In this document: positions 28,355-44,729 of the stretch, one piece after another
Position numbering within the stretch: position 1 is the first letter of the stretch
Layout: every line of letters begins with the position of its first letter
Origin: Pseudoduganella namucuonensis
Lineage (GTDB): Bacteria; Pseudomonadota; Gammaproteobacteria; Burkholderiales; Burkholderiaceae_D
Reading direction: 5' to 3'
Assembly: GCF_900116645.1 (NCBI RefSeq)
Contig: NZ_FPBO01000013.1
Location: 62,001-126,000, forward strand
DNA: 64,000 nt
Program-made: the position numbers and the translations under genes
Notes under the pieces: generated by a model
What the model was told of the DNA's origin: nothing
The model's input: the letters and a program-made list of their open reading frames with translations, nothing else
Database searches by the model: none

Positions 28355-28422
28355 GGGGACAGACGGGGGCGCCGAGTCCACGTTTTTCGAGAAATATTTC
28401 CTCGAAAACGTGGTCTGTCCCC
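28355..28422. repeat. GGGGACAGAC / GTCTGTCCCC inverted repeat (type 2 variant)
   Basis: GGGGACAGAC at 28355-28364 pairs with GTCTGTCCCC at 28413-28422, and an inner pair (CCACGTTTTTCGAG at 28378 against CTCGAAAACGTGG at 28401-28413) forms a second stem around an AT-rich loop. It fills the space between the convergent paoC and esterase genes and is flanked by A-runs and T-runs, so it could end transcription from both sides. It shares the CCACGTTTTTCG string with the element at 33012-33076 and with the tandem copies near 52910-52940. Confidence 0.8.
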
Positions 28423-28426
28423 GGTT

Positions 28427-29095
28427 TTACGCCAGCACGCGTTTCAGCCAGGCGCCGATGTGCTCGACCTCTTCCTGGCACAGCGAGTGCTGCATGTAGT
28501 AGTCGTGCCACTCCACGTCGTAGCCCAGCGACTTCAGCAGGTCGCGCGAGGCCTCGGCGCGGGCCACCGGGATCACCGGGTCCATGCGGCCGTGCACCAT
28601 GAAGATCGGCGTTTGCAGGCTCGCCTCGCTGCGCTCGGCCGCCACCACGTTCGCCAGCGGCACGTAGCCGGACAGGCACATCAGCCCCGCCAGCTTCTCG
28701 GGATGGCGCAGGCCGGCCTGCAAGGTCATCGCGCAGCCCTGCGAGAAGCCCGCCACGATGATGCGCCCGGCCGGAATCCCGCGCGCCTTTTCACGGGCGA
28801 TCAGCGCCTCCACCTGCAGCTGCGAGGCGCGCAGGCCCTTCTCGTCCTCCTGGCGGCCCAGGTCGGTGTGGATGATGTCGTACCAGGCGCGCATCACGTA
28901 GCCGTTGTTGATGGTCACCGGCATGGTGTTCGCGTGCGGGAAGATGAAGCGGATGGCGGGCAGGCCGCTCAGGTCCAGCTCGTTCACCATGGGCACGAAG
29001 TCGTTGCCGTCGGCGCCCAGGCCGTGCATCCAGATGATGGACACGGTGGGATTGGCGCCCGATTCGATTTCAATGTTTTCCAGCAGTGCGGTCAT
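28427..29095 (-). CDS. carboxylesterase/lysophospholipase-type alpha/beta hydrolase
   Basis: A 222-residue serine hydrolase of the bacterial carboxylesterase (EstB, acyl-protein thioesterase-like) family. The nucleophile serine lies in IVAGFSQGCAMTL, the acid residue in FMVHGRMDPVIP, and the histidine in WHDYYMQHSLC. WMHGLGADGNDFVPMV is the oxyanion-hole region. The protein is cytoplasmic with no signal peptide. Likely substrates are short-chain acyl esters or lysophospholipids. GAGGAAAG is 4 bases before the ATG. It is the last gene of a darP-mogA-esterase run with 10 bases between it and mogA. Confidence 0.87.
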   Translation of the reverse strand: MTALLENIEIESGANPTVSIIWMHGLGADGNDFVPMVNELDLSGLPAIRFIFPHANTMPVTINNGYVMRAWYDIIHTDLGRQEDEKGLRASQLQVEALIAREKARGIPAGRIIVAGFSQGCAMTLQAGLRHPEKLAGLMCLSGYVPLANVVAAERSEASLQTPIFMVHGRMDPVIPVARAEASRDLLKSLGYDVEWHDYYMQHSLCQEEVEHIGAWLKRVLA

Positions 29096-30315: not shown

Positions 30316-30407
30316 GATAAGAGGGGGCCAGGTGCGAACCCGGCCTGTAAAAACAGTAAACGACTGCTATGATAACTGTTTTACCGGCCACCCGAAGAAA
30401 ACACCAC

Positions 30408-31760
30408 ATGAGCGACTCCGTCTTCACCCACAGTCAGGACCAATTAAAACAGCTGGCGCGCGACGTTCTGGCGTACGCGAAGGAGAAGGGCGGCACCGAC
30501 TCCGCGGTGGAGATCAGCGAGGGATTCGGCCTGTCGGTGTCGGTCCGCAAGAGCAAGATCGAGACCATCGAGCAGAACAAGGACAAGGGCCTGGGCGTGA
30601 CGGTGTTCATCGGCCAGAAGCGCGGCAACGCCAGCACCTCCGACTTCTCCGCCGCCTCGCTGCGCGCCACTGTGGACGCGGCCTACAACATCGCCAACTT
30701 CACGGCCGACGACGACTGCGCCGGCCTGCCCGACGAGGACCAGCTGGAACTGAATCCGCGCGACCTGAAGCTGTTCTACCCCTGGCACATCAGCACCGAG
30801 GAGGCCGTGGTGCTGGCGCAACGCGCCGAGGCGGCCGCCTTCGCGGTCGACCCGCGCATCACCAACAGCGAGGGCGCCGGTGTGCACGTGCAGCAATCGC
30901 ACTTCGTGGCGGCCAACTCGCGCGGCTTCATCGGCGGCTACCCGTATTCGCGCCACACGCTGTCGGTGGCGCCGATCGCCGGCAAGGGCGCCAAGATGCA
31001 GCGCGACGACTGGTACAGCTCCGTGCGCGACGCCGCCAGGATGGCGCAGCCGGAAGCCATCGGCCGTTACGCCGCCGAGCGCGCGCTGGCCCGCCTGAAC
31101 GCGCGCAAGCTGGACACCCGCACCTGCCCGGTGCTGTTCGAGGCGCCGCTGGCGGCCGGCCTGCTGGGCGCCTTCGTGCAAGCCACGTCCGGCGGCGCGC
31201 TGTACCGCAAATCCACCTTCCTGCTCGACAGCCTGGGCAAGCGGGTGTTCCCGTCCCACATCCAGATCAAGGAAGACCCGCACGTGGTCGGCGCGGTCGG
31301 CTCCGCCCCGTTCGACGAGGAGGGCGTGCGCACCGAGCGCCGCGACGTGGTCAAGAACGGCGAGGTGCAGGGCTATTTCCTGTCCACCTACTCGGCGCGC
31401 AAGCTGGGCATGAAAACCACCGGCAACGCCGGCGGCTCGCACAACCTGTCCATGACCTCGTCCCGCACCAAGAAGTCGGACGATTTCGAGGCCATGCTGC
31501 GCAAGATGGGCACCGGCCTGCTGGTCACCGAACTGATGGGCCAGGGCACCAACTACGTGACGGGCGACTACTCGCGCGGCGCGTCCGGCTACTGGGTCGA
31601 GAACGGCGTGATCCAGTACCCGGTGGAGGAGATCACCATCGCCGGCAACATGAAGGACATGTTCCAGCAGATCGTCGGCATCGGCTCGGACGTGCTGGTG
31701 CGCGGCACCAAGCAGACCGGCTCCATCCTGATCGAAAAAATGGTCGTCGCCGGCGGCTGA
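30408..31760 (+). CDS. pmbA: metalloprotease-like protein PmbA (TldD/PmbA family)
   Basis: A 450-residue PmbA (TldE). With TldD it forms a protease that matures small peptides and degrades unfolded ones; PmbA itself lacks the metal-binding HExxxH of TldD, as here. GFGLSVSVRKSKIETIEQNK, SRGFIGGYPYSRHTLSVAPI, ARKLGMKTTGNAGGSHNLSM and GDYSRGASGYWVENGVIQYP are diagnostic. The start at 30408 is chosen because the upstream in-frame ATG at 30369 lies within a TATGATAA promoter-like stretch. A CTGTAAAAACAG palindrome lies just before that. tldD is not in the window. Confidence 0.92.
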   Translation: MSDSVFTHSQDQLKQLARDVLAYAKEKGGTDSAVEISEGFGLSVSVRKSKIETIEQNKDKGLGVTVFIGQKRGNASTSDFSAASLRATVDAAYNIANFTADDDCAGLPDEDQLELNPRDLKLFYPWHISTEEAVVLAQRAEAAAFAVDPRITNSEGAGVHVQQSHFVAANSRGFIGGYPYSRHTLSVAPIAGKGAKMQRDDWYSSVRDAARMAQPEAIGRYAAERALARLNARKLDTRTCPVLFEAPLAAGLLGAFVQATSGGALYRKSTFLLDSLGKRVFPSHIQIKEDPHVVGAVGSAPFDEEGVRTERRDVVKNGEVQGYFLSTYSARKLGMKTTGNAGGSHNLSMTSSRTKKSDDFEAMLRKMGTGLLVTELMGQGTNYVTGDYSRGASGYWVENGVIQYPVEEITIAGNMKDMFQQIVGIGSDVLVRGTKQTGSILIEKMVVAGG

Positions 31761-31814
31761 GCGCCCGCGGTATAAGCCGCTGTGCATATGCTGCACGGCG
31801 GCATCATATTTTCG

Positions 31815-31843
31815 TTGCAAGCTTGTAGTTGTTTCCATACACT
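31815..31843 (+). promoter_or_regulatory. sigma-70-like promoter of TRAP solute-binding gene A
   Basis: TTGCAA (31815-31820) and TACACT (31838-31843) are separated by exactly 17 bases and lie 37 bases before the start codon. The same hexamers with the same 17-base spacing, and the same GCTTG after the first hexamer, precede the paralogous gene at 37785. That duplication of the arrangement is the main support. Confidence 0.65.
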
Positions 31844-31880
31844 GTCTCCGGCATAACACCACCTACCAGGAGACAAAAGC

Positions 31881-32972
31881 ATGGAACGTCGTTCCTTTCT
31901 GACGAAGGCTGCTGTAGGCGCCTCTGTGGGCGCGATCGCCGCGCCCGCGCTGGCGCAGTCCCAACCGACCATCAACTGGCGCCTGGCGTCCAGTTTCCCG
32001 AAATCGCTGGATACCATCTTCGGTGCGGCGGACACCTTCACCAAACGCGTTTCCCAGCTCACCGGCGGCAAATTCAACATCCGCTCCTTCGCGGGCGGCG
32101 AGATCGTCCCCGGCCTGCAGGTGATGGACGCGGTGCAGGCCGGCACCGTCGAGTGCGGCCACAGCGCCTCCTACTACTACTTCGGCAAGGACGCCACCTT
32201 CGCCTTCGACTGCGCGGTGCCCTTCGGCTTGACCTCGCGCCAGCACACCGCCTGGTACGACCAGGGCGGCGGGCGCGAACTGACCCGCGAATTCTTCAAG
32301 GGCTACGGCATCATCAACTTCCTGGGCGGCAACTCCGGTACCCAGATGGGCGGCTGGTTCCGCAAGGAAGTCAAATCCGTGGCCGACCTGAAGGGCACCA
32401 AGATGCGCGTCGGCGGCTTCGCCGGCAGGGTGCTCGAGCGCCTGGGCCTGGTGCCGCAGCAGCTGGCCGGCGGCGACATCTACCCGGCGCTGGAAAAGGG
32501 CACCATCGACGCGGCGGAATGGGTGGGCCCCTACGACGACGAGAAGCTGGGCTTTCACAAGGTGGCGCCGTTCTACTACGCGCCGGGCTGGTGGGAGGCG
32601 GGCGCCTCGTTCTCGTTCTACGTGAACATCAAGGAATGGGAAAAGCTGCCCAAGGAATACCAGGCCGCGATCGAATGCGCGTCCTACGAGGCGCACGTGG
32701 TGATGCAGGCCGAGTACGACTTCCGCAACCCGGCCGCGCTGGCGCGCCTGCTGAAGAGCGGCGTCAAGCTGCGCAACTTCCCGAAGGACATGATGGACGC
32801 CTGCTACAAGGCGGCCACCGACGTGATGAACGAGGAAGCGGCCAAGAACGCCAAGTTCGCCAAGATCTACGAACCGTGGAAGCGCTTCCGCCAGGACCAG
32901 AACCAGTGGGCCTCCGTGGCCGAGGCGACGATGCAGAACTTCCTCATCAACGCGGGCCGCGGCGGCAAATAA
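31881..32972 (+). CDS. TRAP transporter solute-binding protein (DctP/TakP type), paralogue A
   Basis: A 363-residue periplasmic binding protein. It starts MERRSFLTKAAVGA..., with an alanine-rich signal ending PALAQS; the ERRSFL string resembles a twin-arginine signal. FDCAVPFGLTSRQ, NFLGGNSGTQMGGWFRKE and WVGPYDDEKLGFHKVAPFYY are typical of the alpha-keto-acid/lactate-binding TakP group. No DctQ or DctM membrane subunit lies nearby, so it must use a transporter encoded elsewhere. It is roughly three-quarters identical by eye to the protein at 37785. CAGGAGAC precedes the ATG, and a long inverted repeat follows the gene. Confidence 0.9.
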   Translation: MERRSFLTKAAVGASVGAIAAPALAQSQPTINWRLASSFPKSLDTIFGAADTFTKRVSQLTGGKFNIRSFAGGEIVPGLQVMDAVQAGTVECGHSASYYYFGKDATFAFDCAVPFGLTSRQHTAWYDQGGGRELTREFFKGYGIINFLGGNSGTQMGGWFRKEVKSVADLKGTKMRVGGFAGRVLERLGLVPQQLAGGDIYPALEKGTIDAAEWVGPYDDEKLGFHKVAPFYYAPGWWEAGASFSFYVNIKEWEKLPKEYQAAIECASYEAHVVMQAEYDFRNPAALARLLKSGVKLRNFPKDMMDACYKAATDVMNEEAAKNAKFAKIYEPWKRFRQDQNQWASVAEATMQNFLINAGRGGK

Positions 32973-33011
32973 GCCCCGATAGCTTGTGCGAAACCGGCAC
33001 GCGCCGGGCTC

Positions 33012-33076
33012 AAAACCGGGGTCAGACCACGTTTTTCGGAAACATTGCCCGGAAATCGTGGTCTGACCCCGGTTTT
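33012..33076. repeat. 20-bp perfect inverted repeat (type 2 long form), bidirectional terminator candidate
   Basis: Left arm 33012-33031 (AAAACCGGGGTCAGACCACG) and right arm 33057-33076 are perfect complements over 20 bp with a 25-base loop. The arms begin and end with A-runs and T-runs, so either strand yields a GC-rich stem followed by U residues. It fills the junction between the convergent TRAP protein and lipoprotein genes, ending one base before the latter's stop codon. Confidence 0.85.
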
Positions 33077-34186
33077 TTATCGGCACGCCGCGCTGCGCGG
33101 CTGGCCGCAGCCGATCAGGCCCGCCACGTCCGGGTTTTCCAGGTAGCGCAGGTGCGCCAGGTCCGGCCGCTCGAAGGCGCCGAACCAGGTGCCGGCGTTG
33201 GACACCAGCACGTTGAACACCTCCACGTCCTTGCGGGCGTAGCGCTCGCGCTCCAGCGTGTACGACAGCAGGTCGTTGGGATCGGTGTAGGCCACCACCG
33301 TCAGGCGCGCGAGGCCGGCCGCCCGGAGCGCCGGGCCGCGCCGCCGTAGCAGCAGGCGCTGCAGGCTGTCGTGCGCCGTCACGGCGAGCGCGCCCGGGCT
33401 GGGCAGGCGCTGGTCCGCCAGCGCCAGGGTGGGGATCTGGTTGGCCGCCATGTTCAGGTAGCCCAGCCGGTCCACCGTCCGCTGCGCGGCGGCCGCCGCG
33501 TGGCTGGCGGCCGGTTCGTCCAGCATGTCGTTCAGGGTGTCGAACAGGATCTTGCTGCCCAGGCTTTCCGAGATCACCACCAGCGGGGCCGGTGGCCCGG
33601 ATTGCGCGGATTGTTCAGTTTGCGCCGTCGCGCGCAGGATCGCCTCGCGCATCTGCCGCTGGATCTCGCCGCGCGCCGCGCCCTGGTAGATCATCGCGTC
33701 GGCCAGGCAGTCGTCCAGCAGCAGGTCCTTCAGCCGCGCGTTGAGGCTGGCGCGCCGCGGCTGGAAGGGCTCGGAGCCCTGGCAGATCGGCGACTTGTCG
33801 GTCTGGTCGTAGCACAGCTGCGTTTTCAGCGGCGTCGTGAGCGGGGACCAGATCAGGGACTGGAAGCGGATCTCGCCCTGAGGTGTGCGCACCGTGGCGG
33901 GGATGATCTCGATCCCCGTCCCCGTTTCGGCCGCGCGCGCGGGGGCCGGCGCGGTGTTCGCGGCCAGCGCGGTGGCCAGCGTCCGCACCGTGTCCGCCGC
34001 CCAGCGCGCGTCGTGCGTGCACATGCCGTGCACCAGCATCACGTCCACCGTGCGCGCGGGCGCCTCGCGCACGAAATCGATCAGCCCCGGAAACCGCGCG
34101 TCGGCCTCCATGAATCGCGGCGGATGGTAGGGCGTGGTGCAGGCGCTCAGCGACAGCAGCAGCGGCAGGACGGTCAGCTTGATCAT
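33077..34186 (-). CDS. hypothetical lipoprotein with alpha/beta-hydrolase-like features
   Basis: A 369-residue protein starting MIKLTVLPLLLSLSACTTPY, a clear lipobox with Cys16. VDVMLVHGMCTHDARWA resembles an oxyanion-hole HG motif, and LVVISESLGSKILFD has the position and form of a nucleophile elbow (S-E-S-L-G). This points to a serine hydrolase fold anchored in the envelope, but overall I do not recognise a family. The start at 34186 gives the proper signal peptide; a start 10 codons earlier does not. The TonB receptor gene precedes it on the same strand with a stop at 34261, so the two may be co-transcribed. Confidence 0.72.
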   Translation of the reverse strand: MIKLTVLPLLLSLSACTTPYHPPRFMEADARFPGLIDFVREAPARTVDVMLVHGMCTHDARWAADTVRTLATALAANTAPAPARAAETGTGIEIIPATVRTPQGEIRFQSLIWSPLTTPLKTQLCYDQTDKSPICQGSEPFQPRRASLNARLKDLLLDDCLADAMIYQGAARGEIQRQMREAILRATAQTEQSAQSGPPAPLVVISESLGSKILFDTLNDMLDEPAASHAAAAAQRTVDRLGYLNMAANQIPTLALADQRLPSPGALAVTAHDSLQRLLLRRRGPALRAAGLARLTVVAYTDPNDLLSYTLERERYARKDVEVFNVLVSNAGTWFGAFERPDLAHLRYLENPDVAGLIGCGQPRSAACR

Positions 34187-34260
34187 GGCGGTCTCCGGTG
34201 GTGGAAAAACCATCATGGCAAGCCGGAGCGGGCCCCGGCTTGCGTTGGCTCAGGGACAGC

Positions 34261-36492
34261 TTAGAACTTCATCTCCATCAGCGCCCGCACGACCGCCACG
34301 GTCGGCGTGATGGTGGTGTCGCTGGTGGCGCCGCGCGGGGTGGTGAAACGCGATTGCGCCAGGTTGTCCTGGTGCAGGGCGTTCGACAGCGAGACGCGCA
34401 GCTGGTTCCTGGGATTGAATTTCCACAGCCCGTACAAGTCCAGCGAGCGCTTGGGCACCGTGTAGGCGTACTGGTTCAGCGCGATCCGCACCGGGCCGCC
34501 GCTCTGGAAGCTGTAGCTGCCGCCGGCCGTCAGCGGCAGCGCGTCCATCTTGTAGTCCAGGCCCAGCGTGCCGCTGACCGGGGTTTGCTGGTCCAGGCGG
34601 TTGTCCGGGCCGGGCACCGAGTTCAGTTTCGACCAGTTGCGGGCGACGTTGGCGCGCACCTCGACGGCGGGCGCCTTCGGATACAGGGAACGCAAAGGCA
34701 GCTTCGCCTCCAGCTCCACGCCGCGGGTCCAGGCCACGCCGTCGTTGATCGGGCGCGACACCCACTGGCCGTCGATCTCCGTCACCGTGTTGTGCGTGAT
34801 GTCCTCGATGCGGCGCACGAAGGTGCTGGCCGTCAGCAGGCCGCCGTTCGGCAGGTAGTGCTCGTACGCCAAGTCCAGGCCCCAGGCCAGTTCCGGCTTC
34901 AGTTGCGGATTGCCCATCTGGTCCGGCGTGGTCGGGCTGTTGTTGTTGGAGACGAAGCGGCGCGGAATCAGGCTGTTCACGCCGGGCGCCTTGTAGGTGC
35001 GCGTGAGGCCCAGGCGCAGCTGGTCGTTTTTACTGTCCGGCAGCTTCCACAGCGTCTGGAACAGCGGGCTCCAGACGCTGGACTTGTTGTCCACCGGCGC
35101 GTAGCCCGTGCCCTCGCTCTTGGTCCGGATGCCCTCCCAGCGCAGCCCCAGGTACACCGACCAGCGCTCCGTCACCTGCCACTCGTCCTGGCCGAACAGG
35201 GCCAGGCGCGTGACGTCCGCGTTGTACAGCTGGTCCAGGTCGACGGGCTTGATGTGGGCCGGGTCCGCGGGGCTGATGTGGGAGCGTTCGCGCTGGATGC
35301 GGTCCTCGTAGCGGGTGCTGTACGCCGCGTCCCAGCCCATGGACAGCGCGTGGCGCTCGATCAGCGGCGTGGCGTACTTGCCGGTGGTGCTGAAGCCCTT
35401 GTCGCTGGACTCCGAATCGACGGTGCGGCTCATGGCCAGCGTGCGGTCCCGGTAGTACTGCCGCGAAGGCGCCTCGATGACGCGGCGGTTGTAGTTCACG
35501 CCGCCCTTCACCTCCAGCCTGGCGCCCCGCGCCAGCTTGCGCGTCCAGGTCAGGTCGCTGCGCAGCATGTCCATGTCCGAGCGCACGCCCAGGTCGGTGC
35601 CGCTGTAGCGCGGCGCGCCGCCCAGCAGGGTGGCGATGCGTTCCGTGTTGCTGGCGCGGAAGCGGTTCAGGTTGATGAAACTCTGCGAGGTGACGATGTC
35701 GCCCGGCCCCAGGTTGATGTTCACGCGCGGCGACAGGCCGAAGCCCTTGAACACGCCCTCGCTCTCCAGCGCCGCGTGGCGCAGCAGGTTGGGGGCGCCG
35801 GCCGGGTCCTCGCCGGTGGTGACGATGCGCGACGGCCGGTCGAACTTGCCGTAGCTGAGGTTGCCGCCGATGGCGTACGACAGCGCGCCGCTGCGGTCCG
35901 ACAGCTGGAAGTTGGAATTGGTGCCGAACTTGCCGTTGTCGTCCTGCAGGCCGATCTTCAGTTCCTTCTGCGCGGTCTGGATCGCCTTTTTCAGCACGAT
36001 GTTGATGCCGCCGGCGATGGCCTGGGTGCTGTATTCGGCGGTGGCGGCGCGCATCACCTCGACGCGCTCGATCATGTCCGGCGACAGCGAGTCCAGCGAG
36101 AAGCCGGGCGGCGCCGGTTCGCCGTTCAGCATGATCTGCGTGTAGCCGCTGCCCAGGCCGCGCATGCGGATGTCGCCGCCGCGGCCCTGCACGCCGCCCA
36201 TCGTCACGCCCGGCAGGCGCTTGAGCACCTCGCCGATGGTGGTGTCGCCGTTCTTCAGGATCTCCTCCTGCGTCACCACGATCTTGGTGGCGGTGTCGTT
36301 GCGGCGCGCGTCGTAGCCGGCCGCCGCGCCCTTGACCTCGACCTGCTGGATGGCGGGCTTGGCCTCGTCGGCCGCGTGGGCGTGCTGCGCGGCCAGCAGC
36401 GCGGGGACGGCGGCGAGCATGCGCAGCAGGGAGTGGGAGGGGAGGGAGGGGCGGGTGGGACGGGTCATTGTTGTTGGCTTATCGTTGGACAT
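34261..36492 (-). CDS. TonB-dependent outer-membrane receptor
   Basis: A 743-residue receptor. A signal-like stretch (LLRMLAAVPALLAAQHAHAAD) is followed by a plug domain with TIGEVLKRLPGVTMGGVQGR and RGLGSGYTQIMLNGEPAPPG, then a 22-strand-type barrel ending in the usual aromatic residue (MEMKF). The plug has the form seen in receptors for siderophores and other large ligands; the substrate is not readable. The start may be ATG 36492, whose upstream region is a terminator hairpin, or ATG 36468. Neither has a strong ribosome-binding site. Confidence 0.87.
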   Translation of the reverse strand: MSNDKPTTMTRPTRPSLPSHSLLRMLAAVPALLAAQHAHAADEAKPAIQQVEVKGAAAGYDARRNDTATKIVVTQEEILKNGDTTIGEVLKRLPGVTMGGVQGRGGDIRMRGLGSGYTQIMLNGEPAPPGFSLDSLSPDMIERVEVMRAATAEYSTQAIAGGINIVLKKAIQTAQKELKIGLQDDNGKFGTNSNFQLSDRSGALSYAIGGNLSYGKFDRPSRIVTTGEDPAGAPNLLRHAALESEGVFKGFGLSPRVNINLGPGDIVTSQSFINLNRFRASNTERIATLLGGAPRYSGTDLGVRSDMDMLRSDLTWTRKLARGARLEVKGGVNYNRRVIEAPSRQYYRDRTLAMSRTVDSESSDKGFSTTGKYATPLIERHALSMGWDAAYSTRYEDRIQRERSHISPADPAHIKPVDLDQLYNADVTRLALFGQDEWQVTERWSVYLGLRWEGIRTKSEGTGYAPVDNKSSVWSPLFQTLWKLPDSKNDQLRLGLTRTYKAPGVNSLIPRRFVSNNNSPTTPDQMGNPQLKPELAWGLDLAYEHYLPNGGLLTASTFVRRIEDITHNTVTEIDGQWVSRPINDGVAWTRGVELEAKLPLRSLYPKAPAVEVRANVARNWSKLNSVPGPDNRLDQQTPVSGTLGLDYKMDALPLTAGGSYSFQSGGPVRIALNQYAYTVPKRSLDLYGLWKFNPRNQLRVSLSNALHQDNLAQSRFTTPRGATSDTTITPTVAVVRALMEMKF

Positions 36493-36519
36493 AAAAAAGC
36501 CCTGCCGCCTGGGCAGGGC
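36493..36519 (-). terminator. intrinsic terminator after the M14 peptidase gene
   Basis: On the minus strand GCCCTGCC-CAGGC-GGCAGGGC folds into an eight-base-pair GC stem followed by TTTTTT. It lies 20 bases after the carboxypeptidase stop (36539) and directly before the TonB receptor start (36492), so the T-run abuts the start codon. It is a textbook intrinsic terminator. Confidence 0.85.
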
Positions 36520-36538
36520 CGGTGCCGCGCGGGACGGA

Positions 36539-37666
36539 TCAGGCGCGCAGCGATTGCAGCACGGGCTGCAGGATGGACGCGCCCAGGGCGGCGCTGCGGG
36601 CACCGTCCCAGCCGGCCACCGGGTCGGGATCGTTGGCGTTGTCCTTGAACGGCATCTCCAGGGTCAGCGACAGGCAGCCGAAGGCGTGGGTGACGTGCGG
36701 CGAACCCATGGTCAGCGTCTCGGCGGTGTAGGGCGTCGCGCCGTAGCCGTGCAGGTCCTGGAAGTCCGGGCTGGCGATCTTGAAGTCGGCGATGAAGCGG
36801 TCCTGCGCGGCGCGCTGCGCCTCGGTGAAGTCCGGCAAGGACTCGCTGCCCGCCACGAACACGTAGGGCAGGCCCTCGTCGCCGTGCACGTCCAGGCACA
36901 GGTCGACGCCGGTCTCGTGCATTTTTCGCTTGACCAGGAACACCTCGGGGCTGCGCTCCATGGTCGGATTCAGCCACTCGCGGTTCAGGTTGGCGCCGGC
37001 CGCGTTGGTGCGCAGGTTGCCGCGCACCGAGCCGTCCGGATTCATGTTCGGCACCACGTAGAACACCGCCTCCTTCAGCAGTTGGCGGCCGAAGGGGTTG
37101 GCGTCGTCCAGCAGCGCGTCCAGCATGCCCTCGACGAACCACTCGGCCATCGTCTCGCCGGGATGCTGGCGCGCGATGACCCAGACCTTCTTCTTGCCGT
37201 CGACCGGCTCGCCGATCACCAGCAGGTTCATGTCGTGGCCGTCGATGGTCGAGCCCAGGTCCACCTGGCGCACGTGCGGCGACAGCTGGGCGCTGTCCAG
37301 CAGGGCCAGGTGGCGCTCGTACGAATACGGCTCGAAATAGGCGTAGTACACGCTGTCGAATTCGGGCGTGTGGTTGATGGTCATGGTGTCGCCGTCGAAG
37401 CTGGTCGGCACGCGGAACCAGCTGGCGCGGTCGTAGCTGGCCACGGCCTGGTAGCCCTCCCAGCCGGCCGGATACGCGGCCTTGCCGGCGTTCAGGAAAT
37501 TCATGGTCAGCGGGGTCGCCCTGGCGCCCTGCACGCGGAAGTAGAACCACTGGATGATATCGGCGTGGGAGTCCTTGCGGATGTTCAGGTCGATCGCGGA
37601 AGGGTCGTCCGCGCGCAGAACGTCGATGGCGCCAGCATCGAATTGGTGGCTGATTTTGATCGTCAT
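36539..37666 (-). CDS. M14-family zinc carboxypeptidase
   Basis: A 375-residue metallocarboxypeptidase of the cytosolic-carboxypeptidase-like M14 branch. The zinc ligands are His168 and Glu171 in RQHPGETMAEW and His261 in LDVHGDEG. NMNPDGSVRGNLRTNAAGAN supplies the substrate-binding Asn/Arg pair. A beta-rich N-terminal domain of about 120 residues (ADIIQWFYFRVQGARATPLT) precedes the catalytic domain, as in the bacterial members of this branch. There is no signal peptide, so it is probably cytoplasmic. The gene ends at an intrinsic terminator and is divergent from TRAP paralogue B. Confidence 0.9.
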   Translation of the reverse strand: MTIKISHQFDAGAIDVLRADDPSAIDLNIRKDSHADIIQWFYFRVQGARATPLTMNFLNAGKAAYPAGWEGYQAVASYDRASWFRVPTSFDGDTMTINHTPEFDSVYYAYFEPYSYERHLALLDSAQLSPHVRQVDLGSTIDGHDMNLLVIGEPVDGKKKVWVIARQHPGETMAEWFVEGMLDALLDDANPFGRQLLKEAVFYVVPNMNPDGSVRGNLRTNAAGANLNREWLNPTMERSPEVFLVKRKMHETGVDLCLDVHGDEGLPYVFVAGSESLPDFTEAQRAAQDRFIADFKIASPDFQDLHGYGATPYTAETLTMGSPHVTHAFGCLSLTLEMPFKDNANDPDPVAGWDGARSAALGASILQPVLQSLRA

Positions 37667-37725
37667 TGCTCAAATCCCGGATTGGTGAGAGACGCCATGA
37701 TACTAGCTTTGCAGCAAGCTTGTGA

Positions 37726-37754
37726 TTGCAAGCTTGCCAATTCGGACATACACT
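37726..37754 (+). promoter_or_regulatory. sigma-70-like promoter of TRAP solute-binding gene B
   Basis: TTGCAA (37726-37731), a 17-base spacer and TACACT (37749-37754) match the promoter of the paralogue at 31815-31843 in both hexamers, spacing and the GCTTG after the first hexamer. An extra copy of GCAAGCTTG lies just upstream at 37713, giving a repeated AAGCTTG string that might bind a regulator. Confidence 0.65.
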
Positions 37755-37784
37755 CGCTGGACAACCTGACCGGAGACCCACCCC

Positions 37785-38870
37785 ATGGAACGTCGTTCTT
37801 TCCTGAAAAAAGCATCGGCAGGCGCCGCCGCCGGCGCGCTGGCCGCCCCCGCGCTGGCGCAAGCGCAGCCCGCCGTGACCTGGCGCCTGGCCTCGAGCTT
37901 CCCCAAGACGCTGGACACCATCTACGGCTCGGCCGAGCAGTTCGTCAAGCGCGTGGCCGAGCTCACGGGCGGAAAATTCCAGATCCGCCAGCACGCGGCC
38001 GGCGAGATCGTCCCCGGCCTGCAAGTGATGGACGCGGTGCAGGCCGGCACGGTGGAGATGGGCCACACGCCGTCCTACTACTACTTCGGCAAGGACCCCA
38101 CGTTCGCCTTCGACTGCGCGGTGCCGTTCGGCCTGACCTCGCGCCAGCAGACCGCCTGGTTCGACCAGGGCGGCGGGCGCGAACTGTTGCGCGAGTTCTA
38201 CAAGGGCTACGGCATCATCAACTTCCTGGCCGGGAACACCGGTACCCAGATGGGCGGCTGGTACCGCAAGGAGATCAAGACCGTGGCCGACGTGAAGGGC
38301 CTGAAGATCCGCATCGCCGGCTTCGCCGGTCGCGTGATGGAGCGCATGGGCGCGGTGCCGCAGCAGATCCCGGCCAACGACGTCTACGCCGCGCTGGAGA
38401 AGGGCACGATCGACGCCGCCGAGTGGGTCGGCCCCTACGACGACGAAAAGCTGGGCCTGCAAAAGGTGGCGCCGCACTACTACGCGCCGGGCTGGTGGGA
38501 GGCCGGGCCGCAGTTGTCGTTCTACATCAACATCAAGGAATGGGAAAAGCTGCCCAAGGAATACAAGGCCGCGATCGAATGCGCCAGCTACGAATGCCAC
38601 GTCATCATGCAAGCCGACTACGACGCCAAGAACCCGGCGGCGCTGGCGCGGCTGCTGAAGAACGGCGCCAAGCTGCACAGCTTCTCGAAAGAGATCATGG
38701 ACGCCGCCTACAAGCACTCGACGGCGGTGATGGAAGAGGAAGCCGCCAAGAACGCCAAGTTCAAGAAGATCTACGACCCCTGGAAGCGCTTCCGCCACGA
38801 CCAGAACCAATGGGCCTCGGTGGCCGAAGCCACGATGCAAAACTACCTCATCAGCCTCGGCCGCAAATAA
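37785..38870 (+). CDS. TRAP transporter solute-binding protein (DctP/TakP type), paralogue B
   Basis: A 361-residue periplasmic binding protein with the same signal (MERRSFLKKASAGA) and blocks as the gene at 31881, including NFLAGNTGTQMGGWYRKE and EWVGPYDDEKLGLQKVAPHY. Differences cluster around the likely ligand pocket (for example HTPSYYYF versus HSASYYYF), so the two may bind different keto or hydroxy acids. It too lacks DctQ/DctM neighbours. GGAGACC precedes the ATG. A perfect 29-bp inverted repeat begins 12 bases after the stop. Confidence 0.9.
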   Translation: MERRSFLKKASAGAAAGALAAPALAQAQPAVTWRLASSFPKTLDTIYGSAEQFVKRVAELTGGKFQIRQHAAGEIVPGLQVMDAVQAGTVEMGHTPSYYYFGKDPTFAFDCAVPFGLTSRQQTAWFDQGGGRELLREFYKGYGIINFLAGNTGTQMGGWYRKEIKTVADVKGLKIRIAGFAGRVMERMGAVPQQIPANDVYAALEKGTIDAAEWVGPYDDEKLGLQKVAPHYYAPGWWEAGPQLSFYINIKEWEKLPKEYKAAIECASYECHVIMQADYDAKNPAALARLLKNGAKLHSFSKEIMDAAYKHSTAVMEEEAAKNAKFKKIYDPWKRFRHDQNQWASVAEATMQNYLISLGRK

Positions 38871-38881
38871 TTAACACTTTT

Positions 38882-38963
38882 ACATCGGTGTCAGGCGCGA
38901 CATTCGGACATTCCGGGAGGTACGGACGAGTCCGTGTCCGAATGTCGCGCCTGACACCGATGT
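38882..38963. repeat. 29-bp perfect inverted repeat (type 3)
   Basis: The arms 38882-38910 and 38935-38963 are perfect complements over 29 bp, built around GGTGTCAGGCGCGACATTCG, with a 24-base loop that contains a smaller CGGAC stem. It lies between the convergent TRAP paralogue B and amidohydrolase genes. The core GTCAGGC resembles the GTCAGACC of the type 2 elements in position and length, but the sequence is otherwise different. Confidence 0.85.
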
Positions 38964-40722: not shown

Positions 40723-42402
40723 TCAGAACCGCGTGAAGCTGCCGTTGGCCGCGTCGAGGTCCCGGCCCATCACGACTTGCCGCAGCGGCGCCTTGCGGCG
40801 GCTGGCCGCGAGCTTGGCCGGCGCCGGTGCGAACGGTTCGGCGGCGCGCTCGGCGCGGGTCTTGAAGAAGCCCATCGCCTGCTGCAGTTCGCCGGCTTGC
40901 GCGCTCATTTCCTCGGCCGTGGCGGCCAGCTGTTCGGAGCCGGCGGCGTTTTGCTGGGTGGTCTGGCTCAATTGGCTCAGCGCGACGTTGATCTGCGCCA
41001 CGCCGGCCGATTGCTCGTCCGAGGCGCCGCTGATTTCCTGCACCAGGTCCGAGGTCCGCTTGATGTTGGGCACCATGGAGTTGAGCAGGGTGCCGGCCCG
41101 CTCGGCCAGGCTGACGCTGCCGCCCGCCACTTCGCCGATCTCCTGCGCCGCCACCTGGCTGCGCTCGGCCAGTTTGCGCACCTCGGCCGCCACCACGGCG
41201 AAGCCCTTGCCGTGCTCGCCGGCGCGCGCCGCCTCGATGGCCGCGTTCAGCGCCAGCAGGTTGGTCTGGTAGGCGATGTCGTCGATGATGGCGATCTTGC
41301 GCGCGATCTCGCGCATCGCCACCACTGTCGAGCCGACCGCCGTGCCGCCCTCCACCGCCTCGGTCGCGGCCTGGCTGGCCATGGTGTCGGTGACGCGCGC
41401 GTTCTCCGTGTTCTGCGCGATCGAGGCCGTCATTTCCTCGACCGAGGCGCTGGTCTCCTCCACGCTGGCGGCCTGCTCGCTGGCGGCCTGCGCCAGCGAC
41501 TGCGCGGTGCTGCTCACTTCCTCGGACGCGCTGGCCAGCGCGTGGGCGCTGTCGTTGACGTTGCCCACCACCGCCGCCAGCCGCGTCACCATGGTCTTCA
41601 TGCAGAACAGCAGGCTGCTGTTGTCGTGCTCGCCGGTATGGATTTCCACCGACAGGTCCCCGGACGCCACCCGGTTGACCACCTCGGCCGCGTAGGCCGG
41701 GTCGCCGCCCAGCTGGCGCAGCGTGGCCGTCAGGATGAGCAGGCCCAGCGTCACCACGATGGCGGCGGCCGCGCCGAATATGACGGCCATGTGGCGCTGC
41801 GCGTCGGCCATGTCGTCGCGCGCGGCGGCGGTCGCGGCGGCGGCCAGGCGCAGGTTCAGTTCCAGCACCTTGTCCAGCGCCACGCGCACGTGCTCGATAT
41901 GGGGACCGGCCGCGTTCGCCGCCAGGCGGAATTCCTCGAGCGCCTCCTTGTGCGCGGCGGCGTCCCTGGCCTGGGCCAGCCGTTCGGCGGCCGCGATCAC
42001 GCGCTGGCCGCTTTCCTGGCGCGGCGCCCAGGCGGCGAGGAATTCCCTGTACAGCTCGGCTTCCTCGCTGCTTTGCGGCAGCGGCTCGTAGATCTTGCGC
42101 CCGCCCGCGACCTCGGCGAAGCCGTTCCGCATCGCCGTGACTTGCGCCGCGATCTCGCCCTGCGCCCGCATGTCGTCGGCGTGGCGGAACACGCCCAGCG
42201 CGCCGATGCGGATCGCGCGGTTGCCCAGCTTGATCTGGTACAGGCCGGTCACCGACGGCAGGCGCACGTCCGCCACTTCCGTGAATCCGTGGTTCGCGCC
42301 GCGCAGGCCGGCATAGCCGGCGGCGCCGACCAGCGCGATGCCCAGCACCGCAAGACCCAGCAACAGGGACAGCTTTACTTTGATGGTAAGGCGATTCAGC
42401 AT
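40723..42402 (-). CDS. methyl-accepting chemotaxis protein
   Basis: A 559-residue chemoreceptor with a first helix ([20 protein letters not shown]), a four-helix-bundle-like sensor, a second helix near 190-210 ([19 protein letters not shown]), a divergent HAMP region and a signalling domain with the hairpin tip [20 protein letters not shown]. After it comes a basic, alanine-rich tail without a docking pentapeptide. The start at 42402 ([11 protein letters not shown]) is favoured because GAGGA lies at correct spacing; ATG codons at 42408 and 42414 are also in frame. It is on the same strand as paaX but 185 bases after it, so it may have its own promoter. The ligand is unknown; aromatic acids are a guess from position. 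Confidence 0.87.
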
Positions 42403-42587
42403 GGTCATCCTCATCGGTTAACGTGGCCGTTCAACGTCGCGGAACGATCCACTTTACGACTGGGTTTGCATGCGATCAAGAGAAGATTTCCGATGCGAAA
42501 TAAACAACACCGGGGCCGCGCGGCTTGACAAGGCGATACGCCGGTTTGCCGGGCGCGGCGCGGCCGGCGCTAGCATCCGGCTAGCCC

Positions 42588-43535
42588 CTACCCTCGGTCC
42601 GGGGACGGGCGCAGGCCGCCGAAACGCTCGTCCAGGCTGGGGTCCGCCTCGGGCGCGTCCGGGTCTTCGCGGCGCAGGGTGGTGGTGATGTGCGCCTCGG
42701 CCGCCTCGTACACCAGCACGTAGAGCCGCCGCGCCAGCTCGTAGGCCTTGGCGCCCGGCCAGGGTTCGGGCAGCAGTTCCATCGGCAGGTGCGGGTCGTG
42801 CAGCTGGACCCGGCGGTAGGCGTGCGCCAGCAGGGTGCGGATCACGAAGGCCTGCTCCGGCTCGGGCGCCGGTCCGCCGTCCAGCAGGGCCAGCAGCGGC
42901 TGGAACTGGGCGATGAACCGCTGGTAGCCGTCGATCACGCCGCCCAGGTCCCAGCCGTCCACGATCAGCTCGCGCAGCGGGCGGCCGTGGCGCACGCCCG
43001 GCATGCTGGCGCCCCGGCAGACGAAGACCTTGTCCTGCGTGCCGGTGCGGGCCAGCAGGTCGTCCAGCGTGTCGGCGTCGCCGGCCGGATGGCCGAACAC
43101 GCCCGGCGACACCAGGCTGTAGCCCTCCCACAGCAATTCCTTGCGCAAGGTGCCGCGCTCGGCGGCGCTGATGTTGCCGTTGCCGCTCAGGACGAAGGTC
43201 CAGTTGCCGTCCCACTCGCGCTGCGGTGGCGCGTACACGCGGCGGTAGGCGCGCGTGAAGCGGCCCTGCGCGGACGGCGGCACCGCGTACGAGGAGCGGC
43301 GTCCGTCGCGCTGCGAGGCCAGCCAGCCCTCCTGGGCCAGCCGGAACACGGAGGTGCGCACCAGCCGGTCGTTGACGCCGAGCGGGGCCAGCAGCTCGAT
43401 CAGGCTGCCCAGCCAGACGGTGCCGCCGTGCGGCACGATGCTGTCGCCGAAAATGGTCATCACCAGGGATTTGGAGCGGGGCGGATCGCTGGCCAGGAAG
43501 TGGGCGATCCATTCGTTGCTGTTCAGGTTGTTCAT
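42588..43535 (-). CDS. paaX: phenylacetate pathway repressor PaaX
   Basis: A 315-residue transcription repressor. The N-terminal winged-helix part reads SLVMTIFGDSIVPHGGTVWL and NDRLVRTSVFRLAQEGWLAS, and the C-terminal effector part GKRRRY-type region appears as WDGNWTFVLSGNG with PGVFGHPAG. PaaX in E. coli represses paa promoters and is released by phenylacetyl-CoA. It is divergent from paaA with about 200 bases between, so it probably controls both directions from that region. Length and blocks are normal for the family. Confidence 0.93.
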   Translation of the reverse strand: MNNLNSNEWIAHFLASDPPRSKSLVMTIFGDSIVPHGGTVWLGSLIELLAPLGVNDRLVRTSVFRLAQEGWLASQRDGRRSSYAVPPSAQGRFTRAYRRVYAPPQREWDGNWTFVLSGNGNISAAERGTLRKELLWEGYSLVSPGVFGHPAGDADTLDDLLARTGTQDKVFVCRGASMPGVRHGRPLRELIVDGWDLGGVIDGYQRFIAQFQPLLALLDGGPAPEPEQAFVIRTLLAHAYRRVQLHDPHLPMELLPEPWPGAKAYELARRLYVLVYEAAEAHITTTLRREDPDAPEADPSLDERFGGLRPSPDRG

Positions 43536-43681
43536 CGTTGCGGACTACGCGTGATTTCTCTCAAGACGGGAGTTTACTTTGCTCCGGCTTCGGCGCAGCA
43601 TTATTTTTCTTCTACGTGGACAAAACGGCAGTATTGCGCCGTAAAAGGATACGGATTTTTAATTTGAGTCAAAAAAAACGT

Positions 43682-43709
43682 ATGCAAAGTTAAATTTGTA
43701 TCGTATTAT
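43682..43709 (+). promoter_or_regulatory. candidate operator and -10 element of the paa operon
   Basis: An imperfect palindrome, ATGCAAA-GTTAAA-TTTGTAT (43682-43701, one mismatch), is followed by TATTAT (43704-43709), a good -10 element about 30 bases before the paaA start. The surrounding AT-rich stretch contrasts with the genes. The 204-base paaX-paaA gap has no other convincing -10. A binding site here would overlap the promoter and block it. It does not match the E. coli PaaX consensus closely, so the regulator could be PaaX or another protein. Confidence 0.45.
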
Positions 43710-43739
43710 CGATCCATACCTTGAACGAGGAGACAGATC

Positions 43740-44729
43740 ATGTACGCACAGATGGTGGAAACGGGGCTGAAAAACGTCCGTTCCCTCGACGACATGGGCG
43801 CCGAGGAGCGCGCCTTCCAGGCCAGGATCGACGACGGCGTCAAAATCGAGGCCAAGGACTGGATGCCGGACGCCTACCGCAAGACGCTGATCCGCCAGAT
43901 TTCCCAGCACGCCCATTCGGAAATCGTCGGCCAGCTGCCCGAGGGCAACTGGGTGACCCGCGCGCCCACGCTGAAACGCAAGTCCATCCTGCTGGCCAAG
44001 ATCCAGGACGAGGCCGGCCACGGCCTGTACCTGTACAGCGCCGCCGAGACGCTGGGGGTGTCGCGCGACGAGCTGCTGGCGGCCCTGCACAGCGGCAAGG
44101 CCAAGTATTCGAGCATCTTCAACTATCCGACCCTGAGCTGGGCCGACATGGGCGCCATCGGCTGGCTGGTGGACGGCTCGGCCATCATCAACCAGATCCC
44201 GCTGTGCCGCTGCTCGTACGGCCCGTACGCCCGCGCCATGATCCGCGTCTGCAAGGAGGAATCCTTCCACGCGCGCCAGGGCTACGACATCATGATGTCG
44301 CTGGCCAAGGGCACGCCGGAGCAGAAGGCCATGGCGCAGGACGCGCTGAACCGCTGGTGGTGGCCGTCGCTGATGATGTTCGGCCCGTCCGACGCGGAAT
44401 CGGTCAACAGCGCGCAGTCCGCGCAGTGGCGCATCAAGTTGTTCTCGAACGACGAGCTGCGCCAGCGCATGGTGGACCAGACCGTGCCCCAGGCCGAATA
44501 CCTGGGCCTGACCATCCCCGACCCGGACCTGCGGTTCAACGCCGACACCGGCCACTATGAATTCGGCGAGATCGACTGGAGCGAGTTCCAGGCCGTCCTG
44601 AAGGGCAACGGCCCGTGCAACCGCGACCGCCTGCGCACCCGCGTCAAGGCCTGGGACGACGGCGAGTGGTTCCGCGACGCGCTGGCGGCGCACGCCGACA
44701 AACACAAAGAAGACAAGGCCGCGGCCTGA
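43740..44729 (+). CDS. paaA: ring-1,2-phenylacetyl-CoA epoxidase subunit PaaA
   Basis: A 329-residue catalytic diiron subunit of the epoxidase that attacks the ring of phenylacetyl-CoA. Iron ligands fall in the carboxylate-rich helices: [20 protein letters not shown] and [17 protein letters not shown] (both E-x-x-H forms). It forms a heterotetramer-type complex with PaaC and needs PaaB and the reductase PaaE. GAGGAGAC lies at a good distance before the ATG. It is the first gene of the cluster, followed 11 bases on by paaB. Confidence 0.95.

Follow-up and report, generated by a model that had tools for sequence, protein, structure and literature searches.

Two paralogous genes in a 64,000-nucleotide stretch of the Pseudoduganella namucuonensis genome (C54:62001-126000, hereafter the window) very probably encode the periplasmic receptors of a single tripartite ATP-independent periplasmic (TRAP) transporter of the TakP, or 2-oxo-acid, type. 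The membrane part of this dispersed transporter would be a DctQM (QM) pair on a different contig, C13. The two solute-binding proteins (SBPs) are SBP1 (31881..32972, plus strand; 363 amino acids) and SBP2 (37785..38870, plus strand; 361 amino acids). The assignment draws on computed observations of their family and pocket residues, the lack of local QM genes, a single unpaired QM, co-inheritance of SBP and QM, and adjacency of QM to orthologous SBPs in other genomes. TRAP receptors are commonly assigned to adjacent QM genes, and unpaired ones stay without an assigned function. Here a partner can be assigned through co-inheritance and ancestral position, and SBP1 and SBP2 are probably not functional orphans.

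Two receptors and one unpaired DctQM

SBP1 and SBP2 were defined by open reading frame, Pfam, NCBIfam, and structural model. They share 280 of 360 residues, match the DctP profile (PF03480; 203.4 and 209.8 bits, respectively; cut-off 23.4), and carry twin-arginine signals (NCBIfam; 19.4 and 24.2 bits; cut-off 16.7). A profile search of contig C54 (172,836 bp), which carries the window, found no match to PF04290 (DctQ) or PF06808 (DctM). The initial annotation of this DNA, which described genes for very similar TRAP binding proteins at 31881 and 37785 without DctQ or DctM alongside, was therefore correct.

Across the whole assembly (G000; 8.49 Mb in 103 contigs, 98.9% complete, 5.36% contamination), there are four DctP genes (two on C54, one each on C7 and C32) and two DctQM pairs (C7 and C13). 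Directly upstream of the C7 QM is an SBP gene whose product is 30% identical to SBP1. The C13 QM (C13:30695-32961, minus strand, outside the window; DctQ and DctM both above Pfam cut-offs) has no DctP match close by and none among the seven neighbors scanned, which are OmpA-like, alpha-galactosidase-like, Hsp20, two acetyltransferases, a CAAX-type protease, and an aldehyde dehydrogenase. Because the C7 QM owns an SBP and the C13 QM has none nearby, the latter is the one unpaired permease found. The initial annotation had asked for a search for unpaired DctQM genes and had named complete TRAP operons that account for all of them as evidence against its proposal; the search returned exactly one pair without a binding protein beside it, so the proposal holds on this count. 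The SBPs and the C13 QM do not form one operon, as they are on different contigs, and the contig ends allow a separation of at least ∼100 kb.

A predicted binding site of the TakP type

Models of SBP1 and SBP2 have mean predicted local distance difference test scores of 89.2 and 89.3, respectively. By sequence, the solved structures nearest to SBP1 are 4yzz/4yic, 2hzk, and 7ug8, and the SBP1 model superposes on 4yic, 2hzl, 4yzz, 7ug8, and 2hzk with Z scores of 47.0–48.8 and root-mean-square deviations (rmsd) of 1.2–1.4. The closest is the Bordetella bronchiseptica BB0280 SBP (4yic/4yzz; for 4yic, Z 48.8, 55% identity, rmsd 1.2). TakP (SmoM) of Rhodobacter sphaeroides (2hzk/2hzl, titled as sodium-alpha-keto-acid binding) has the same fold, with Z scores of 47.0 and 48.7 and 54% identity in structural alignment. 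The Synechococcus CC9311 receptor (7ug8; Z 47.7, 49% identity) is of the same fold and subfamily, but its entry title names an alpha-ketovaleric acid/calcium complex where TakP has sodium. Toward its C terminus, the single-chain model of SBP1 has long helices (324-347 and 349-360); in the TakP type, a long C-terminal helix swaps in the dimer.

According to PMC1839085, Arg177 and Tyr100 of TakP contact the carboxylate, and Gln156, Glu214, Trp215 (main chain), and Glu240 are cation ligands. In 111 of 111 aligned SBPs, including SBP1 and SBP2, all six residues of this sodium and pyruvate site (Y100, Q156, R177, E214, W215, and E240) are conserved (one of 112 rows, a gene cut at the locus end, was left out of the pocket alignment, the SBP tree, and the promoter count). 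A cation-assisted 2-oxo monocarboxylate is therefore the best ligand inference, and both proteins should bind such compounds together with a cation. Residues 96, 152, 242, and 244 of the cavity, in contrast, vary. One letter of the published TakP cavity list, A213, disagrees with the printed sequence (T213), and the remaining eight match it.

In the mechanism that we propose, each receptor would capture a 2-oxo monocarboxylate and a cation (sodium in TakP), and the loaded receptor would deliver its ligand to the DctQM membrane complex encoded on C13, which would import the keto acid on an ion gradient. Two receptors with a common head-group and cation site and different side-chain cavities would probably admit a wider range of keto acids into one permease. 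That both SBPs physically dock on this QM is inferred, as are the range of substrates, the direction of transport, and its coupling to ions.

Orphan binding proteins of TRAP and TTT systems without local membrane genes have been described (PMC12344293 and PMC5812351); relative to those accounts, the difference here is that a likely partner is named, via co-inheritance and a conserved convergent position. Likewise, in PMC1839085, dctQ and dctM homologs lie immediately downstream of takP, whereas here the SBPs are duplicated and the QM is on another contig. A literature search that mostly excluded subscription journals found neither a description of a dispersed SBP/QM arrangement nor a paper combining "TRAP transporter" and "Massilia". 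The system amounts to a transporter of a known type in dispersed form; what is unexpected is the alternation of two well-separated QM lineages in the role of partner.

Co-inheritance of receptor and permease

Across 145 genomes of the family, searches with DctM (P0003, E ≤ 1e-30) and SBP (P0001, E ≤ 1e-60) hit the same 57 genomes, and comparison of the two lists left 88 genomes with neither. Among 74 genomes of the genus of the window, 39 have both and 33 have neither; the exceptions are one genome with only an SBP (G194, 60% complete) and one with only a QM (G195, 83% complete).

The distribution of the C7-type SBP, searched as a control (E ≤ 1e-100), bears on whether SBP1 and SBP2 instead serve the C7 QM despite the binding protein encoded beside it. 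In favor of that pairing, the assembly contains no QM besides those of C7 and C13. Yet the C7-type SBP, at only 30% identity, is distributed unlike SBP1, being found in 27 of 145 genomes, of which 20 are inside and seven outside the 57, while 37 of the 57 lack it. We consider a C7 partnership to be highly improbable.

The strictness with which SBP and permease are inherited together favors transport over a role of the SBPs as sensors, a role that the initial annotation had raised and that finds no positive support here. In that role, ligand-loaded SBP1 and SBP2 would hand keto acids to either a two-component kinase or a chemoreceptor, and a methyl-accepting chemotaxis protein gene with a four-helix-bundle sensor module (40723-42414) is indeed located ∼1.9 kb downstream of SBP2. 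In addition, a DctP gene without QM on contig C32 of the same genome sits beside a PAS/histidine-kinase gene, meaning that such pairings of SBP and kinase may exist. However, a Pfam scan of ten neighboring genes of the SBPs found no sensor kinase or response regulator. Moreover, QM genes are present in 39 of the 40 SBP-bearing genomes of the genus, the exception being the 60% complete one, and a sensor would not need them. A sensory function is thus very unlikely. As for the C32 DctP itself (G000:C32:409546-410391; L097:6487-7569, minus strand), it is divergent from the 692-amino acid PAS/histidine-kinase gene (L097:7556-9634, plus strand) and may be a true co-sensor rather than part of a transporter.

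Ancestral position of the QM genes

Gene order was compared across 75 named loci, with families assigned by Pfam (here and in the count of upstream half-sites below, the first residue was missing from the queries for DctM and DctQ). The recurrent order is esterase-mogA-yjgA divergent from pmbA-SBP. A convergent QM comes after a set of one to four tandem SBPs in 28 of 75 loci; these loci include most of those from Noviherbaspirillum, Paucimonas lemoignei, and several Oxalobacteraceae assemblies. The comparison found no QM in the available stretch of Massilia, Pseudoduganella, Duganella, Rugamonas, and Janthinobacterium loci. Three genomes from two other genera (G030 and G084 in one, G100 in the second) have a QM of the C13 type directly convergent with two tandem orthologous SBPs beside pmbA, with DctM 76-78% identical to the C13 type and 177-195 bp between match ends.

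Within the genus, SBP and QM are on one contig in 28 genomes, in every case convergent and 17-37 kb apart (distances are approximate, being measured from the first listed DctM segment). Five of these 28 have the C13-type QM and 23 the other type. In 11 genomes, SBP and QM are on different contigs, and in the close relatives G182 and G183, the two are separated by more than ∼680 kb and more than ∼510 kb, respectively. Together with the unpaired state of the C13 QM and the co-inheritance of QM and SBP, the three genomes with this QM type beside orthologous SBPs support the suggestion in the initial annotation of a retained duplication feeding one transporter encoded elsewhere.

Two DctQM lineages behind one receptor family

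DctM proteins of the C13 type (type A) are 76-89% identical to relatives over nearly their full length. Type B proteins match the C13 query in two segments, with 51-68% identity within the genus, and the two types are ∼45% identical overall. In the DctM tree, type A forms a clade of 12 rows (support 100/100) separate from type B. Branches are long for the outgroup row L098 and for rows L109, L094, and L107, and the program issued a warning about long-branch joins; L107 and L109 may represent further DctM types. In the L098 protein, the DctM of the complete C7 operon (L098:6081-8393), the two halves are separated by a long insertion rich in Ala, Pro, and Gly.

Of the 57 family genomes, eight have type A (one of them, G023, has both types), and in the other 49, all matches are of other kinds. 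Within the genus, type A is found in 14 of 39 genomes and type B in 25, and no genome has both. Two QM types therefore alternate behind the same SBP family, a pattern compatible with replacement of the QM or with differential loss of two ancestral QMs, which the data do not distinguish. Whether the membrane complex switched between these two well-separated lineages as the receptors, with their different side-chain pockets, were retained is close to an even question, leaning slightly to the negative. If it did, docking of receptor and permease is interchangeable in this TRAP subfamily, and nature has carried out a permease-swap experiment. More generally, the rearrangement of this transporter is a natural test of how freely receptor and membrane parts recombine, and two QM lineages behind one receptor family make the basis of receptor-permease specificity directly testable with natural material from environmental bacteria.

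Several observations weigh against pairing SBP1 and SBP2 with the C13 QM. Counts of co-occurrence are phylogenetically non-independent and inflated by relatedness, although presence and absence are concordant within one genus as well. The DctM searches pool the two QM types, and the C13 type is in only eight of the 57 family genomes. No promoter element links the C13 QM to the SBPs, as no TTGCAAGCTTG-type site precedes C13 dctQ in this genome. A takP mutant had no growth phenotype on keto acids (PMC1839085). Lastly, the number of contigs and the level of contamination in the assembly mean that another QM could be missing or that C13 could be foreign. A contaminant origin of C13 is itself unsupported: GC content (0.668 for C13 vs. 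0.677 for the window) and tetranucleotide profile (r = 0.990) agree, and the DctM tree groups C13 with members of the genus.

Duplication and divergence of the receptors

The SBP tree has an SBP2 clade of 18 rows (Shimodaira–Hasegawa-like approximate likelihood ratio test [SH-aLRT] of 98) and an SBP1 group of 37 rows, which has a support of only 88 and is drawn open. This topology agrees with an old duplication, placed close to the base of the Massilia/Pseudoduganella group, as expected for a retained pair. A recent duplication or gene conversion was rejected because SBP1 and SBP2 are in separate groups across the Massilia group and the spacers between their promoter hexamers differ.

The SBP1 group and the SBP2 clade have near-fixed differences at 17 of 361 columns. 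Four of these are among the nine published TakP cavity positions and are fixed in 37 of 37 and 18 of 18 rows, respectively: A96P, S152T, A242P, and F244L (SBP1/SBP2). Outside the cavity, 13 of 352 columns differ (Fisher p = 0.0004, or 0.003 when the ion site is included). As there was a single duplication, the p value measures concentration in the cavity and not repeated evolution. Judging from the states in the outgroup, S152 and F244 appear to be derived in SBP1, as does P96 in SBP2; position 242 is ambiguous. We suggest that the fixed cavity differences reflect different side-chain preferences of SBP1 and SBP2.

One of the two, SBP2 or else SBP1, could be a redundant copy without a distinct substrate. 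A single SBP match is found in ten of the 39 genomes of the genus that have both SBP and QM, in which case the second copy is either dispensable there or missing from the assembly, and the end branch of SBP2 in the window pair is longer than that of SBP1 (0.046 vs. 0.0094). Nevertheless, SBP2 belongs to an old, well-supported clade (18 rows) with open reading frames, and the differences are fixed and concentrated in the cavity, unlike random decay. Redundancy is thus unlikely.

Promoter layout

As the initial annotation reported, TTGCAA-17-TACACT with GCTTG adjoining the first hexamer precedes both genes. The promoter-like sites, TTGCAAGCTTG-N12-TACACT, are at 31815..31843 (SBP1) and 37726..37754 (SBP2), both on the plus strand, and these are the only two occurrences without mismatch in the assembly. 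Eight further matches have three mismatches each, while a reversed control pattern has three matches in all. Both sites match the sigma-70 consensus at eight of 12 positions by our own count; the scanning tool needs nine of 12 and listed neither. The SBP1 and SBP2 sites differ in the spacer between the hexamers and in the distance from TACACT to ATG (37 and 30 nucleotides, respectively).

Conservation was examined in 37 SBP1-group, 18 SBP2-clade, two SBP2-like, four long-branch, and 50 outgroup rows. TACACT is upstream of 36 of the 37 SBP1-group genes, and the full motif occurs with at most three mismatches in 25. Within the SBP2 clade, eight of 18 promoters have the full motif at this threshold and ten do not; TACAAT is present in ten and the 11-base TTGCAAGCTTG core is unmismatched in seven. 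All four long-branch rows (L077, L082, L089, and L092), three of which sit directly beside pmbA, have the motif within three mismatches; it was found at this threshold in neither of the SBP2-like rows nor in any of the 50 outgroup SBP genes. The shared layout is therefore a property of the Massilia group that was partly lost or replaced at SBP2.

For C13 dctQ, the best promoter candidate, read by eye, is TAGCAA-17-TAATAT, and membership of QM in the promoter family of the SBPs was rejected. The half-site TTGCAAG/CTTGCAA is upstream of dctQ in eight of 39 distinct cases (L167, L168, L169, L166, L100, L048, L060, and L064), compared with zero of 41 for pmbA, zero of 63 for yjgA, two of 64 for mogA, zero of 64 for the esterase, and two of 39 for dctM. 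Upstream regions shorter than 100 bases were skipped, and M14 regions (five of 24) were unused as a control because they are the intergenic region shared with SBP2. The dctQ upstream region of this genome has CTTGCGA in place of the exact half-site. Given the variable position of the half-site and its inexact form here, the enrichment at dctQ promoters is a lead only.

SBP1 and SBP2 may have one common regulator. Active co-regulation would involve binding to the palindromic TTGCAAGCTTG core, which overlaps the −35 region, and would fit with there being only two exact copies of the motif in the assembly, with cores kept intact in seven SBP2-clade promoters despite differing spacers, and with half-sites upstream of dctQ that are rare in the pmbA, yjgA, mogA, and esterase controls. 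On the other hand, the motif is missing from most SBP2-clade promoters and from all SBP2-like and outgroup rows, dctQ half-sites vary in distance and are lacking in 31 of 39 cases, and plain inheritance of a basal promoter accounts for much of the layout. We therefore regard co-regulation as doubtful. The shared regulation put forward in the initial annotation holds insofar as the common promoter is real in the lineage; its absence from ten of 18 SBP2-clade promoters and from dctQ of this genome speaks against the rest.

Neighboring genes and repeats

A PmbA/TldD-family gene (30369..31760, plus strand) is the conserved left neighbor of SBP1, and an M14 carboxypeptidase gene (36539..37666, minus strand) is divergent from SBP2; both served as synteny anchors and are outside the transporter. 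A terminator-like hairpin of 11 pairs (31776..31802, plus strand) follows pmbA and precedes the SBP1 promoter, in keeping with transcription of SBP1 as a unit of its own. Farther downstream of SBP2, the region 42588-44729 encodes a PaaX-family regulator and, by eye, an apparent paaA of phenylacetate breakdown.

Both SBP genes are followed by repeats. Just 3' of SBP2 is a long inverted repeat (38888-38957) whose arms contain GTGTCAGGCGCGAC. A different, palindromic element of ∼66 bases lies directly after SBP1 (33016-33081) and also at 28375-28428, with 18 alignments in the assembly, counting both strands, on contigs C7, C33, C35, C39, C45, C47, C48, C54, and C66. The sequence GGTCAGACC occurs seven times in the window, where 0.39 occurrences are expected.

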